From contig NZ_CP086727.1 in NCBI RefSeq assembly GCF_020906275.1, positions 2,604,001-2,668,000 on the forward strand: 64,000 nt of DNA, read 5' to 3'. The stretch is from Parasphingorhabdus litoris DSM 22379 (GTDB lineage Bacteria > Pseudomonadota > Alphaproteobacteria > Sphingomonadales > Sphingomonadaceae). The notes beneath the pieces were generated by a model. It did not search any database. It saw only the letters and a list, made by a program, of their open reading frames with translations, and was not told the DNA's origin. Positions 48,465-53,430 of this stretch are shown one piece after another. A program made the position numbers and the translations under genes. The first letter of the stretch is position 1. The number at the start of each line of letters is the position of its first letter.

Positions 48465-49004
48465 ATGAATTTCGACAAGCTGATTGATGATGTGATCGCC
48501 ATAGAAGGCGACTATTCGAACCATCCGGAAGATCGCGGCGGCCCTACCCGCTGGGGCGTCACCGAAACAGTTGCCCGGCGCAATGGTTATAAGGGTGACA
48601 TGCGGCATTTCCCCTATGAGGAAGCTGTTGCCATATATAAGCGCAACTATTGGCTCCGTCCGGGCTTTGACAAAATCGCCACTCACGCACCGCGGCTGGC
48701 GGAAGAACTATTCGATACCGGCATCAATATGGGCCCAGCCATCGCTGTTGGCTTTTTGCAACGTTCACTCAACGCACTGAATCGCAACGGCCGGGATTTT
48801 GCCGATATTCAAGCAGACGGAAAAATCGGACCGCGAACGATCAACGCATTGGAACGGTTTTTAGCGAAGCGCGGATCAGGTGGCGAAACTGTTTTGCTGA
48901 AAGCCGTCGAAGCACTCCAAGGCGCGAGATATATAAAATTGGCCGAACAGCGGCCAGCCAATGAAGCTTTTCTCTATGGCTGGCTGGCCAATCGGATCGG
49001 ATAA
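48465..49004 (+). CDS. GH108 N-acetylmuramidase endolysin (GTA/phage type)
   Basis: 179 aa. The GH108 motif IEGDYSNHPEDRGGPTRWGV is at residues 13-32 with catalytic Glu14. The C-terminal ~90 residues are the PG-binding_3 domain (LFDTGINMGPAIAVGFLQRS, IQADGKIGPRTINAL). There is no signal peptide, so release needs the holin encoded next. A TAACC-AAATA-GGTTA palindrome lies about 40 bases upstream (48412-48426). No capsid or tail gene is nearby; this looks like an isolated lysis pair. Confidence 0.92.
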   Translation: MNFDKLIDDVIAIEGDYSNHPEDRGGPTRWGVTETVARRNGYKGDMRHFPYEEAVAIYKRNYWLRPGFDKIATHAPRLAEELFDTGINMGPAIAVGFLQRSLNALNRNGRDFADIQADGKIGPRTINALERFLAKRGSGGETVLLKAVEALQGARYIKLAEQRPANEAFLYGWLANRIG

Positions 49005-49123: not shown

Positions 49124-49537
49124 ATGTCTTTGCTTTCCACCCTCATCGGCCCCATTTCAAAAATCATCGACAAGATCATTCCTGACAAGCAGGCTCGTGA
49201 TCTTGCCAAGCTGGAACTTCTGAAACTCGAAGGCAGCCAGGAATTGGAGCAAGTCCGGGTCCAAATGTCAGCAATATTGGCCGAAGCGCAGTCAGCTGAT
49301 CCCTGGACCAGCCGCGCGCGCCCCAGCTTTCTCTATGTCATGTATCTTTTACTGCTCTGGTCGATACCCATGGGTTTAATTGCCGCTATCAGACCTGAGA
49401 CGGCCCAGAATATCGCCAGTGGCATGAACGCTTATCTGGCTGGCATTCCCGAACCGCTCTATGCCTTATTTGGAACGGGCTATCTCGGCTATACGGTTGC
49501 ACGACAGTGGGGAAAAATTCGCGGTGCGGAAAAATAG
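49124..49537 (+). CDS. Three-TM holin of the GTA type
   Basis: 137 aa from the ATG at 49124 preceded by AAAAGGAACC; the open frame upstream to 49007 is not expected to be translated. An amphipathic N-terminus (TLIGPISKIIDKIIPDKQAR) and a long Lys/Glu helix are followed by SARPSFLYVMYLLLLWSIPM-like and YALFGTGYLGYTVARQWGK segments (R-P-x-x-Y pattern), which match the GTA_holin_3TM family. It should make inner-membrane holes that let the endolysin out. Confidence 0.85.
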   Translation: MSLLSTLIGPISKIIDKIIPDKQARDLAKLELLKLEGSQELEQVRVQMSAILAEAQSADPWTSRARPSFLYVMYLLLLWSIPMGLIAAIRPETAQNIASGMNAYLAGIPEPLYALFGTGYLGYTVARQWGKIRGAEK

Positions 49538-49587: not shown

Positions 49588-49718
49588 ATTAACTATTTTA
49601 CTGCCTAAGAAATCCACAATTTCAGCCATTTTTTGCAATAACACACAAATAGGCTTGCCATGGCTATATCTTTGAAGATAGAGGGGAAAGTCTAGTTCAT
49701 TCCAAAGGGGATATTTTA

Positions 49719-50027
49719 ATGTCTAACGAAACAAGTTTCCGCAAAATGCTGGCAGTAGCCGGTGGTCTTGCTCTGGCTGTTCCTGCTCTTTCAGCATGTG
49801 CTGAGCAAGCTGAAGATGCCGCTGCTGCTGCAGAATGTGCCGCTGAATGTGCTGCATGTGCTGCTGGCGAAGCTGCATGTGCTGCTGGTTGCGCTGCTGA
49901 CGCTGCTGGTTGTGCTGCTGCATGTGCCGCTGGTTGTGCTGCTGACGCTGCTGGTTGTGCCGCTGACGCTGCTGCATGTGCTGCTGGCGATGCCGCTTGT
50001 GCTGCTGCAGATGCAGTTACCGAGTAA
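49719..50027 (+). CDS. Ala/Cys-rich lipoprotein with cysteines on one helix face
   Basis: 102 aa. Signal peptide with lipobox LSAC; lipidation predicted at Cys27. The +2 residue is Ala, which suggests the outer membrane. The mature part is mostly Ala, Gly, Asp and Glu with 11 further Cys at 40, 44, 47, 54, 58, 65, 69, 73, 80, 87 and 94. All spacings are 3, 4 or 7, and at 100 degrees per residue these cysteines fall within about 100 degrees of one another on an ideal alpha helix, with most of the acidic residues on or near the same face. I know no family with this pattern. Metal or thiol-reactive compound binding is the leading guess. AAGGGG lies 12 bases before the ATG. The coding DNA is a degenerate GCT/TGT repeat. 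Confidence 0.72.
   Translation: MSNETSFRKMLAVAGGLALAVPALSACAEQAEDAAAAAECAAECAACAAGEAACAAGCAADAAGCAAACAAGCAADAAGCAADAAACAAGDAACAAADAVTE
49836..50000 (+). repeat. In-frame codon repeat in the Ala/Cys-rich gene
   Basis: The segment between the codons of Cys40 and Cys94 is built from near-copies of GCTGCTGGTTGT/GCTGCTGACGCT and GCATGTGCTGCTGGC units, giving periods of 7 and 11 codons. Synonymous changes (GCT/GCC, TGT/TGC) show the repeat is not just recent slippage. Length may vary between strains. Confidence 0.7.
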
Positions 50028-50045
50028 GCTTAAGCTTATTCAGCA

Positions 50046-50672
50046 TTGGAAAATGCATTAGAAAAGCTGTTTGAGCTTACAGGCCAGATAGCTAAAGAGG
50101 GCGTCTCGCTAGTACCCAGAGTGGTACCGGCAGACGCCCCTTTCGTTCAATATCAACATTATCCAAAAGGCGACTGTGTTGCACCCGGCAACAAGTCTCG
50201 CTGGTTTTACCATGCGCACAAGCCTGAGGAGAGGGAAGAGGGCGAGCACGGCCATTTCCACATGTTCCTGCCGCTCGACATGTTCAAAGGCGTCGATGCG
50301 CTTTATGAACCGCCTAAGAAATTGCCCAATGGCAAACCGACCCAAGGCGTCGTCCATTTTGGCGCGCTCAGCTTTGGTCTGGACGGCATGCCGCTTAGCT
50401 GGTTCACGACCAACTATTGGGTCACCTATGAATATTTCATGCCCGCCGATGCGATTGCATCGCGGCTCAAGCTCTTTTCCATGAAAAAAGCACCGGGCGA
50501 TCCCCTGGTCAACGACTGGCTCACCGCCGCTGTTGCCGTTTTCCATGATCCGATTATCGAGATGCTCGAAGATCGCGACAAGCTGCTAGCCGAGAAAAAA
50601 GCAGAATTGGGCGACGCCGTTTTCGAAAATAAATCGGTTGAGATCATGTCACGCAAAGCCTTCGACTTATAG
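50046..50672 (+). CDS. His-rich protein of unknown function, partner of the Cys lipoprotein
   Basis: 208 aa from a TTG start at 50046; the upstream stop in frame is at 50031 and no better start exists until well inside. No signal peptide, so cytoplasmic. Residues 54-72 contain YHAHKP and EHGHFHMF, giving His56, 58, 68, 70 and 72, a likely metal site, and HFGALSFGLDGMPLSWFTTN further on. I think it belongs to a recently named domain of unknown function (DUF6969), but I cannot confirm this. It starts 19 bases after the Cys-rich gene and overlaps the UdgX-type gene end by 6 bases (convergent). No SD is seen. Confidence 0.7.
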   Translation: MENALEKLFELTGQIAKEGVSLVPRVVPADAPFVQYQHYPKGDCVAPGNKSRWFYHAHKPEEREEGEHGHFHMFLPLDMFKGVDALYEPPKKLPNGKPTQGVVHFGALSFGLDGMPLSWFTTNYWVTYEYFMPADAIASRLKLFSMKKAPGDPLVNDWLTAAVAVFHDPIIEMLEDRDKLLAEKKAELGDAVFENKSVEIMSRKAFDL

Positions 50673-52187
50673 GTCAAACGCCAAGCATTTTAGCCATTGC
50701 TCCGCCATTATACCGTTGATATCCGGCGTAGCCGCAAACGCAGCCGCTTTTCTGAGATCACGCACCAACTTATCATATTCAATATCCTGACCGGCCGCAT
50801 CCGGGATTCTCAGAATATAAGAGGGATGAACGGTAACAAGCAGATGTCGGTTCGCTGCAAGCGGTAAAATAGCACCTCGCGTCCGGGAGATGGAAAGCGA
50901 GCGCCCGGTAAGGGCTCTTACCGCCGTTGCTCCCAACGCCAGTATGATTCTGGGCTTTATCAGCTTAGTCTCCTGCTCCAACCACCACCGATAATATTTA
51001 ATATCGGCCGGTGACGGGGTCTGATGAATTCGTCGCTTTCCGTGCTGTACATATTTGAAACGCTTTACGGCATTTGTAAGATACAGATGCTTCCGATCGA
51101 TAGCCGCATCACCAAGCGCACGATCCAGCAATTCTCCGGCCGGGCCAATAAAGGGGCGCCCTCGCCTATCTTCCTGATCGCCTGGCTGCTCTCCGACAAC
51201 AACGATGCCACAGTCAGCTCGCCCCTCACCCAATACCGCTTGCACGGAGAAATTATCACCATAATCGGCTGTGCGAACCGCCATTTCTTTGTTCAACTCG
51301 CTCAGCGAATCCGGTGTCCAATGCCCTTCCTCAACGGCTTGGCCTGTCAAGGCGCTGATATCCGTTTCTCGATCCAGCATTTTTTGAACCTGACTGCCGG
51401 ATTGTCGCACCAAAGACGGAATCAGCTCAGCTTCCGGTAAGTTATGCCAGTATTTCATAGGCATTTCTGATTTCATGGCCTGTGTTTTCAACCGCGCCGG
51501 GTTGAATATATTGCGATAATAGGACCGCCATTCTTCTTCGATCACATCTTCCTGCGCAAAATCCTGTTTGCAACCACCGGCACCGGAGATAAGATTTTCT
51601 CCGTCCCAGGCAATGCTGGCATCCGGCGAAGCGATGATCCAGTCCATCCCGGTAAAACGATTGCGAAAAAAGGGACCAACCGCTTCCACAATATGATGTT
51701 CAGGTTCAAACCATGCGATAAATTGCTCCCGGTTTCCTCGTGTTCCTACTTTACGAAACCGAACAAAGGCATGCATCTTGTGGATATCCCGCCGCACGGA
51801 TTTCTCGTAACTCTGGAGCTTCCGAACATCGGCGTCCGCAGGATTGCGATAAAGCTTCGGTGTCTTTTGCATTCGAAAAAGCAATCGATAAGCGAGCGCG
51901 AACCGGTCTTCGTTCTTATGCAATAGCGCGGTATTGATAAGCTGCAAGAAAGCCCTATCAATCCTGATTTCCGAAGATGGGCGGTTGGCTGGCCGCGCTT
52001 GTTGATGCGTTACCTCTCCAAAGTCGAGTTCACCCATTCCAGCGCGATTCCTCACTGACCAAACCAGCTGACCGGGTTCTGTTCCGCGTTGAATCATCGC
52101 ACGCGCTTGATCGCGCCAACCTTGGATATCGGTCTCGCTTTCCAAAACGATGCGATGCGTATCAGTCAGTGGCTGCATATTCCGCAT
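50667..52187 (-). CDS. TIGR03915/DUF4130-UdgX fusion, DNA repair protein
   Basis: 506 aa from the ATG at 52187, one base after the upstream stop; a TTG at 52199 is possible. Residues 1-240 match the DUF4130-type partner domain found with SAM DNA-repair proteins (AYRLLFRMQKTPKLYRNPAD, RNREQFIAWFEPEHHIVE). Residues ~310-495 are a family-4-like uracil-DNA glycosylase with GEQPGDQEDRRGRPFIGPAG and the UdgX-specific KRRIHQ loop, whose His (~388) can bond covalently to the uracil-derived abasic sugar in known UdgX. HPSYILRIPD is the C-terminal DNA-contact motif. Co-transcribed with the radical SAM gene. Confidence 0.9.
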   Translation of the reverse strand: MRNMQPLTDTHRIVLESETDIQGWRDQARAMIQRGTEPGQLVWSVRNRAGMGELDFGEVTHQQARPANRPSSEIRIDRAFLQLINTALLHKNEDRFALAYRLLFRMQKTPKLYRNPADADVRKLQSYEKSVRRDIHKMHAFVRFRKVGTRGNREQFIAWFEPEHHIVEAVGPFFRNRFTGMDWIIASPDASIAWDGENLISGAGGCKQDFAQEDVIEEEWRSYYRNIFNPARLKTQAMKSEMPMKYWHNLPEAELIPSLVRQSGSQVQKMLDRETDISALTGQAVEEGHWTPDSLSELNKEMAVRTADYGDNFSVQAVLGEGRADCGIVVVGEQPGDQEDRRGRPFIGPAGELLDRALGDAAIDRKHLYLTNAVKRFKYVQHGKRRIHQTPSPADIKYYRWWLEQETKLIKPRIILALGATAVRALTGRSLSISRTRGAILPLAANRHLLVTVHPSYILRIPDAAGQDIEYDKLVRDLRKAAAFAATPDINGIMAEQWLKCLAFDL

Positions 52188-52188
52188 A

Positions 52189-53430
52189 TCAGACGGCAAA
52201 CAGATTCAGTTGCTCTGCCGGCGGTTTCAAACGATCATATAAATTGAGCGAGTCCAATTGTTTGCCCGGATGCCAGTCCGTCGCCACGACAAATGGCAGG
52301 ATTTTCTTCACAGACTGACAGATGCGTTCCAAATCCTGCAACCGCAGTGCAGAGAACCGCCGCGCGCGCAAAATCTTGCCCACCCCCGTGGTACCAAGCC
52401 CAGGGACCCGCAACAGGCTCTCCTTATCTGCCAAGTTGACATTGACCGGAAATTTATCGCGATTTTGTAGAGCCCAGGCCAGTTTGGGATCTATTGTAAG
52501 ATCCAGATGTCCGTGGTTCGCTCCGGTCATAATATCGGCAACCGAAAAGCCGTAGAAACGCAACAGCCAGTCCGCCTGATAGAGCCGGTGCTCACGCAGC
52601 AATGGCGGCGACTTTAGGGGCAGTCCACCGCTTGCATCGGGTATCGGGCTGAATGCAGAATAATAGACCCGCTTCAGACCGTAACGACCATAGAGACCGC
52701 TGCTTGTCGTCAATATCTTCCCATCATCAGAAGGGTCCGCGCCAATGATCATCTGTGTGCTGTGCCCGCCAGGCGAAAAAACAGGCGCCTTTCGAGACGT
52801 CTTACGCTCTGCCTTCGCTTCGCCTATCCGCTTGCCCAATCCGGCCATGGTTTTGCGGATCAATGTTCCGCTTTTTTCCGGAGCCAATCGCGCGATGGAT
52901 TTGTCATCCGGCAATTCGATATTGATTGATAGCCGATCTGCATAGCGACCAGCCTCTTTCAGCAGTTCAGAATCCGCTTCCGGAATTGTCTTGAGATGTA
53001 TATAGCCGCCAAAACGATGCACCTTGCGCAGGCGCCGCGCCACCTCGACCAATTGCTCCATCGTGTAGTCAGGGCTGCGAATAATCCCCGATGATAGGAA
53101 CAAGCCTTCAATATAATTGCGCTTGTAAAAATCGAGTGTCAGATCGACCACGTCCTGAACGGTGAAAGCAGCCCTTCGAACGTTGCTGGATGACCTGTTG
53201 ACGCAATAGAGGCAATCAAACATGCAATAGTTGGTCAACAATATTTTGAGCAAGGATATGCAGCGGCCATCTGGCGCATAGCTGTGACAGATGCCCATAC
53301 CGCCCGTAGAACCGATACCTCCCGTTTTTCGTGAATTACGCTTGGTGGATCCACTGGATGCGCAAGAGGCATCATATTTCGCGGCGTCGGCCAATATGGC
53401 GAGTTTTTGCGTTCTAGAGAGCTTTGACAT
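52189..53430 (-). CDS. Radical SAM protein, putative DNA modification/repair (TIGR03916 type)
   Basis: 413 aa. Radical SAM cluster-binding TNYCMFDCLYCVNR (Cys69, 73, 76, the CxxxCxxC form), preceded by GICHSYAPDGRC. The barrel follows, and a C-terminal helix-hairpin-helix DNA-binding motif (LLRVPGLGTTGVGKILRARR). This family is known to be next to UdgX/DUF4130 genes and is thought to act on damaged DNA, though the reaction is not shown. An SOS box lies 19 bases upstream of the ATG. Confidence 0.9.
   Translation of the reverse strand: MSKLSRTQKLAILADAAKYDASCASSGSTKRNSRKTGGIGSTGGMGICHSYAPDGRCISLLKILLTNYCMFDCLYCVNRSSSNVRRAAFTVQDVVDLTLDFYKRNYIEGLFLSSGIIRSPDYTMEQLVEVARRLRKVHRFGGYIHLKTIPEADSELLKEAGRYADRLSINIELPDDKSIARLAPEKSGTLIRKTMAGLGKRIGEAKAERKTSRKAPVFSPGGHSTQMIIGADPSDDGKILTTSSGLYGRYGLKRVYYSAFSPIPDASGGLPLKSPPLLREHRLYQADWLLRFYGFSVADIMTGANHGHLDLTIDPKLAWALQNRDKFPVNVNLADKESLLRVPGLGTTGVGKILRARRFSALRLQDLERICQSVKKILPFVVATDWHPGKQLDSLNLYDRLKPPAEQLNLFAV

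Follow-up and report, generated by a model that had tools for sequence, protein, structure and literature searches.

Metallothioneins pack cysteines at high density into short proteins, and the Csp proteins, which store Cu(I), carry many cysteines on helices that form a Cys-lined four-helix bundle. Closer to the locus described here are signal-peptide-bearing, Cys-modified and copper-linked RiPPs that are made by MNIO enzymes (PMC12452194, PMC12636315). The account of the bufferins describes the signal peptide as a suspected part of enzyme recognition (PMC12452194), and that of the DAG-RiPPs, in which NedA is a predicted copper-binding oxazolin, allows that RiPP-lipoproteins beyond MNIOs may exist (PMC12636315). 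Here we describe a lipoprotein gene and its DUF6969 neighbour in Parasphingorhabdus litoris, a pair that makes a strong candidate for a RiPP-lipoprotein system of that kind.

The pair lies in a window of 64,000 nucleotides (contig NZ_CP086727.1, positions 2,604,001 to 2,668,000), where the two genes run in the same direction, are separated by 18 bases and comprise the following features, given in window coordinates:

49704..49711, + strand: putative ribosome-binding-like AAAGGGGA, read from the sequence 5' of the lipoprotein gene
49719..50027, + strand: Cys-array lipoprotein precursor (ORF), 102 aa, 12 Cys
49719..49796, + strand: conserved leader/signal peptide, residues 1-26, from homologue comparison
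49788..49799, + strand: lipobox L24-S-A-C27, motif identified by eye, lipidation predicted from the motif
49836..50000, + strand: Cys array, residues 40-94, with 11 Cys in a single helix-phase stripe together with Ala/Gly/Asp/Glu
50046..50672, + strand: DUF6969 (PF22308) partner, 208 aa, TTG start, Pfam E 4e-57
50208..50219, + strand: YHAH, residues 55-58 of DUF6969; H56 invariant and H58 conserved in at least 90% of 58 sequences
50244..50261, + strand: EHGHFH, residues 67-72 of DUF6969; H70 and H72 invariant in 58 sequences

The precursor carries the clean lipobox that the original prediction had placed at Cys27 (LSA-C, residues 24-27, by eye), which marks it as a predicted bacterial lipoprotein. 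Its frame, for which a lack of synonymous bias would have counted against that prediction, is coding, with a pN/pS of ~0.16-0.37 in the mature part and of 0 to 0.18 in the leader relative to eight equal-length homologues. The protein was detected by search in 30 of 32 genus genomes, has no Pfam match at E 0.1, and is modelled by AF2 as a monomer with one helix spanning residues 3-101 (mean pLDDT 75.8, pTM 0.34). Directly 5' of the gene lie a GH108 muramidase (48465-49004, +) and a GTA-type 3TM holin (49124-49537, +), a lysis-type module whose order relative to the lipoprotein is kept in G009, G014, G017, G031 and G054, a steady association. On the 3' side of DUF6969 and on the minus strand, 50667-52199 and 52189-53430 encode a fusion of a UdgX-type uracil-DNA binding protein with TIGR03915 and a radical SAM protein of TIGR03916, respectively, which constitute a putative linked DNA-repair pair.

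The 11 further cysteines follow one another at spacings of 4, 3, 7, 4, 7, 4, 4, 7, 7 and 7 residues, which bears out the initial claim that only 3, 4 or 7 residues separate them, and a hand calculation at 100 degrees per residue places them all in the range from -40 to +60 degrees, in agreement with the arc of roughly 100 degrees anticipated for an ideal alpha helix. Across 27 unique family proteins (26 from the genus and one from outside, G054, including G014, which has no mature Cys, and excluding G017 (L060)), spacings of 3, 4, 7 or 11 account for 98% of 210 Cys-Cys spacings, compared with a mean of 29% and a maximum of 40% in 500 residue shuffles. A scan from 2 to 8 residues gives a best Cys period of 3.60 residues, at which phase coherence reaches 0.878 versus 0.758 +- 0.025 in spacing-order shuffles, the observed value being attained by 0 of 1000 shuffles; this test used the 18 proteins that have seven or more mature Cys and ignored their relatedness. 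At 3.5 residues, the periodicity of a coiled coil or of the Lpp alanine zipper, coherence (R 0.554) is no better than in the shuffled set (0.583). The array is therefore a straight helix stripe with a 3.60-residue period rather than the 11-residue repeat suggested at the outset; the accompanying analogy to type I antifreeze proteins, which show an 11-residue Thr periodicity, is likewise not borne out, as Thr occurs only at residues 5 and 101 of the lipoprotein. Cys number is not conserved: the mature part has 2 to 16 Cys where genus genomes possess DUF6969, four genus members having only 2, and 19 Cys in G054, which belongs to another genus. The predicted retention of the 3/4/7 spacing thus holds within the genus, where the 98% includes spacings of 11, and mostly fails in other genera, where 33% of spacings are 3, 4, 7 or 11 (36 precursors) and mean R at 3.6 is 0.18 (34 proteins), so that the stripe is a clade-specific form rather than the essence of the system.

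The downstream protein belongs to DUF6969 with 193.5 bits against a gathering cut-off of 27 over residues 3-204, and no signal peptide was seen in it. The YHAH and EHGHFH motifs on which the original prediction had built are present at residues 55-58 and 67-72. Among 58 diverse DUF6969 sequences, P40, H56, H70, F71, H72, F74, H104, F120, N123, T127, R177 and D178 show no variation, and conservation of at least 90% is seen at further positions that include H38, D43, H58 and E67, so that six His are conserved at this level along with Asp, Glu, Arg, Asn and Thr. The AF2 model is an alpha/beta domain of high confidence (pLDDT 95.5, pTM 0.91), in which the conserved His lie, by sequence position, on strands or at most 2 residues from them. 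Rather than free metal-trafficking motifs, as first envisaged, the His motifs are the conserved core of PF22308, a confidently modelled domain, and would more fittingly be taken for an active site or a metal site. Foldseek and VIA searches with DUF6969 returned no good solved or viral structure match and no relative of known reaction, and we found no mention of the family in the papers searched; it has at least 4169 homologues, and the 120 matches listed are unnamed, 'hypothetical' or 'DUF6969'. Two copies, at L065 and L068, are without YHAH and EHGHFH (SCHAL, KHAHFH) and are possible pseudo-enzymes; the genomes in which they lie, G077 and G086, also hold intact copies.

Within the genus, the lipoprotein gene lies just upstream of DUF6969 in 28 of the 28 genomes with an orthologous DUF6969, as scored by a DUF6969 signature at most 1.2 kb downstream of the lipoprotein, and two further genomes (67% and 80% complete) have neither gene. 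DUF6969 is found in 90 of 385 genomes of a class-wide sample. At 118 hits drawn from this sample, from relatives and from three loci of the Parasphingorhabdus litoris group, with flanks mostly of ~5 kb, a Cys-array ORF occurs within 2 kb in 58 versus 2 farther out, with none detected near the remaining 60; the arrays were composition-filtered, Cys-dense ORFs, of which at least L130 looks by eye like a shadow frame, and those close to DUF6969 come from 31 families by a hand count from family labels. A comparable picture emerges from 80 named loci in which DUF6969 was found by HMM (the best 80 of 575, leaning to sphingomonads and covering Sphingomonadales, Rhodospirillales, Marinobacter, Coxiellaceae and others): an ORF that combines Cys repeats with an N-terminus resembling a signal peptide lies within 2 kb in 60 and farther away in 2, and 20 of the 80 have none within 2 kb. 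Some named loci are apparently the same contigs as other handles (e.g., L219, L029), and the 118-, 80- and 192-locus counts used here are consequently not fully independent. The adjacency that the original prediction had proposed to follow across genomes is thus complete among genus genomes with DUF6969 and widespread outside the genus. In a phylum-wide sample, DUF6969 is present in 20 of 398 genomes, and arrays were found at 8 of 16 new loci, 4 of them among the 8 loci that lie outside the class (1.5-kb flanks; 9 flagged by script, L341 dropped by eye). Co-occurrence at the genome level points the same way: the DNA pattern for PCNPCAA is found in 37 of the 385 genomes, 34 of which have DUF6969 versus 56 of the other 348 (Fisher p 5e-21; the exceptions are G221, G392 and G432), and the reversed control pattern gave 0 matches.

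The pair displays genetic hallmarks of a candidate RiPP system, namely a conserved leader, a variable core and a linked dedicated gene. Mean identity among 36 precursors from Sphingomonadales is 72% over 18 residues around [ML]LAVxGGL, a figure inflated by a sample rich in Erythrobacter relatives, and 45% in the cores (35% versus shuffled cores). The order is reversed in the BamD control, with 25% identity in the signal peptide and 74% in the mature part (23 genera, same family; parsed in 23 of 30 loci). Leaders taken without the leader motif again give 72%, versus 35% for BamD signal peptides, and the 10th percentile of the motif-based leaders (56%) exceeds the BamD signal peptide 90th percentile (39%); motif-based extraction covered 36 of 41 loci and the motif-free one 37 of 41, with a wrong ORF left in for L227 and L231. 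The corresponding DNA pattern, sought in 98 relatives, is found between 0 and 3 times in each genus genome, and 30 of its 43 places were inspected, of which 19 are arrays adjoining DUF6969, 6 are arrays near YHS genes and 5 are unrelated. Among 239 genomes of the sphingomonad family, DUF6969 is found in 28, the leader pattern in 29 and both in 19 (p 1.5e-14), whereby a leader-plus-array gene is present in 18 of the 19 genomes with both (the exception is G905) and in 0 of the 10 with the pattern and no DUF6969; the strict pattern is absent from 9 of the 28 with DUF6969. From these comparisons, the leader behaves like a recognition sequence.

Two genus genomes, G014 and G017 (87% and 97% complete), retain the lipoprotein and lack DUF6969 in a whole-genome search. 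In both, GH108, the GTA-type holin and the lipoprotein lie on contiguous DNA that then continues into other genes. Their lipoproteins have 0 Cys after the lipobox and keep an Ala/Asp/Glu-rich mature part, and the leader Gly-Gly, present as Gly15-Gly16 in 28 of 28 genus genomes with DUF6969, reads Gly-Ser in one of them and lacks a Gly in the other. A tree built on 1.1 kb of the DNA upstream puts G014 within a well supported 11-row clade (100/99) and G017 elsewhere, in a separate group (88/98). Although resolution is poor at 12 of the 28 inner branches and long branches occur in some rows, two losses are the simplest reading. Loss is also favoured over gain by G054, a member of another genus with both a Cys-rich lipoprotein and DUF6969 at the same place. 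G014 and G017 thereby reveal which precursor features go with DUF6969, namely the mature Cys and the leader Gly-Gly.

What the cores have in common is dense exported Cys, and the helix stripe is one solution among several. CAA stripes occur in the genus Parasphingorhabdus and in L219, L234 and L335; CCAAEG occurs in Erythrobacter and NPCSAK in Sphingomonas cores, CNPCNPCAAK is found in Rhodospirillales and others, and further DUF6969-linked cores are built on CAAAGC, CEATE, NPCAAK, CKGCGG and CGACGA. Pontixanthobacter (L258) combines DUF6969 and the leader, yet has a core with one Cys. The L227 and L231 precursors have fewer Cys and feature Met-Asp/Glu repeats (DAMADDAMADDAM, MEGDAMEGD); should a metal role be correct, such repeats would be well suited to Cu(I). 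NPC-type arrays adjoin DUF6969 in Marinobacter (L269), in a gammaproteobacterial MAG (L272) and in Hyphomicrobium (L283), and by eye all three have CxxCH-containing cytochrome-like stretches behind the array.

Several gene associations speak to what the arrays may do. A second precursor (e.g., L081) lies between two exported-looking YHS-domain proteins, and L395 (G1025) joins the leader and a CGAC array to a YHS domain in one fusion (PF04945, E 6e-13). YHS domains are proposed transition-metal binders, one of them a probable copper sensor (PMC4626032). Precursors with leader and Cys array stand beside YHS-domain proteins in L081, L084, L299, L303, L312 and L318-L320, the further neighbours of L081 look by eye like leuA and ilvC, and in Pontixanthobacter L258 DUF6969 itself lies between genes similar to those of the second-precursor loci. 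As the YHS-locus precursors are not adjacent to DUF6969, any action of the latter on them would be in trans. BLAST clustering of DUF6969 neighbours further identified an FGE-sulfatase-like cluster at 21 loci, a median of 14 bases from DUF6969 (Pfam on representatives), and a cytochrome c cluster at 23 loci, a median of 96 bases away (one representative scanned), and cytochrome P460 is found on 3 of 5 long NPC proteins scanned. FGEs are described as cuproenzymes, and both FGE-sulfatase and cytochrome c are reported as fused to bufferins (PMC12452194). The metal or thiol role originally proposed is supported indirectly, and the evidence for metal is by association.

The lipoprotein and DUF6969 genes are linked, co-occur across genomes and go missing jointly in two of them, and their conserved leaders precede variable cores; that the two make up one functional system is very probable. 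We also consider it likely that DUF6969 acts on the precursor via the leader, and on balance we favour the view that the genes are a precursor-partner pair for leader-guided maturation of envelope Cys arrays. The lipoprotein would be made with a signal peptide that doubles as a recognition leader, by analogy to bufferins and DAG-RiPPs, and DUF6969, a cytoplasmic protein with a conserved His/Asp/Glu site, would bind this leader before export. DUF6969 would then act on the core Cys, most likely by covalent (oxidative) modification, a suggestion that we make with some reserve, and the matured array would undergo Sec export and lipidation and be held in the envelope, where it would act as a buffer for soft metals, probably copper, and/or as a thiol buffer. 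Direct DUF6969-leader binding, the covalent chemistry and the identity of the metal are elements that we infer, and soft-metal or copper buffering is, in our estimate, the somewhat probable purpose of the system.

The linkage, leader and joint-absence data would equally fit a DUF6969 without chemistry, which as a leader-binding chaperone or metallochaperone would keep the poly-Cys protein reduced, unfolded or metal-loaded and leave plain thiols to bind metal outside, and Cys-rich Sec substrates may plausibly need such cytoplasmic protection. The conserved residue set is, however, polar and catalytic-looking (six His together with Asp, Glu, Arg, Asn and Thr), unlike the hydrophobic surface of a holdase, and since this polar invariant set would favour chemistry, we regard the chaperone role as rather unlikely. 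Less likely still is a reading in which metal is not the purpose, DUF6969 is a thiol-redox helper and the arrays serve in the envelope to buffer redox state or disulphides or to take part in electron transfer. The P460 domains on NPC-array proteins, the CxxCH motifs behind the arrays of L269, L272 and L283 and the cytochrome c cluster all agree with such a redox function, whereas the YHS fusion and the YHS and FGE neighbours point to copper (PMC4626032, PMC12452194), and DUF6969 has conserved His and no conserved Cys, which would set it apart from thioredoxin-type enzymes.

A structural Ala-rich lipoprotein, either an Lpp-like coiled coil or an antifreeze-like helix with incidental Cys, would account for the one long helix of the AF2 model and for the Cys-free, Ala/Asp/Glu-rich mature parts of G014 and G017. 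The Cys period of 3.60 nevertheless differs from that of a coiled coil (3.5), the lipoprotein has mature Cys in all 28 genus genomes with DUF6969 and in neither of the 2 without it, and the arrays of other genera are mostly not helix-phased, so that we see very little room for this explanation. The 21- and 33-base repeats that TRF reports across the lipoprotein region could in principle reflect the expansion of a functionless repeat that is non-coding or of low complexity, an idea of negligible probability that the coding constraint, the conserved leader and the conserved linkage rule out.

If leader-guided maturation is the correct reading, the DUF6969 family, with its at least 4169 homologues, gains a concrete and testable role. 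Going further, and tentatively, DUF6969 may represent a new class of (metallo)enzyme that modifies Cys under the direction of a leader and independently of MNIO. Its substrates would form a large Sec-exported poly-Cys group, spanning CAA stripes, CCAAEG and NPCAAK arrays and P460 and YHS fusions, and would provide a second bacterial answer to the bufferin problem. We found no published description of such a protein group.

Compared with known systems, the lipoprotein resembles metallothioneins in having a high Cys density in a short protein and differs in being exported and repeat-built, with a conserved leader, a dedicated partner and no Pfam match. With Csp it shares many Cys on helices; unlike Csp, it is without a Pfam family at E 0.1, predicted to be lipid-anchored and tied to DUF6969, and it is predicted as a single long Ala-rich helix by AF2 as a monomer (pTM 0.34). 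The DAG-RiPPs or lipidated oxazolins (DybA, NedA) are, like the product proposed here, RiPP-lipoprotein hybrids with cytoplasmic modification followed by SPII lipidation; they differ in that they depend on MNIO enzymes and that DybH reads a C-terminal motif, whereas here the N-terminal leader is conserved (PMC12636315).

The bufferins (Buf1/Buf2, with MNIO of PF05114 and DUF2063) share with this locus a Sec-exported Cys-rich precursor adjoining a cytoplasmic protein that handles its Cys, as is proposed here for DUF6969, and in their described form some are predicted lipoproteins and FGE and cytochrome c domains recur (PMC12452194). They differ in that DUF6969 precursors are long tandem Cys arrays and that, of 192 DUF6969 loci, only 1 has an MNIO nearby and only 1 a DUF2063. 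A phmmer search with the Parasphingorhabdus litoris MNIO as query gave no MNIO near DUF6969 in 191 of the 192, the single match being an MNIO-like gene in the DUF6969 flanks of L194, a possible hybrid cluster. The same Parasphingorhabdus litoris genome encodes a Buf1-type cluster of its own (L323, G000:C1:216869-217666) with a DUF2282 precursor, MNIO (PF05114) and DUF2063, as well as a further small downstream ORF that is DoxX-like by eye; its MNIO, the sole one of the genome, lies 2.4 Mb away by contig coordinates. The DUF6969 profile is unrelated to the MNIO and DUF2063 of this genome (hhalign probability 1.6% and 0.05%, respectively), and the lipoprotein shows no bufferin signature (DUF2282) among Pfam matches at E 0.1, a signature that PF10048 does detect in the same-genome Buf1 precursor. 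Given the separate Buf1/MNIO/DUF2063 cluster, the lack of relation of DUF6969 to its enzymes and the occurrence of MNIO at 1 of 192 loci, the lipoprotein-DUF6969 pair would be bufferin-like in its working but is not a member of the bufferins.
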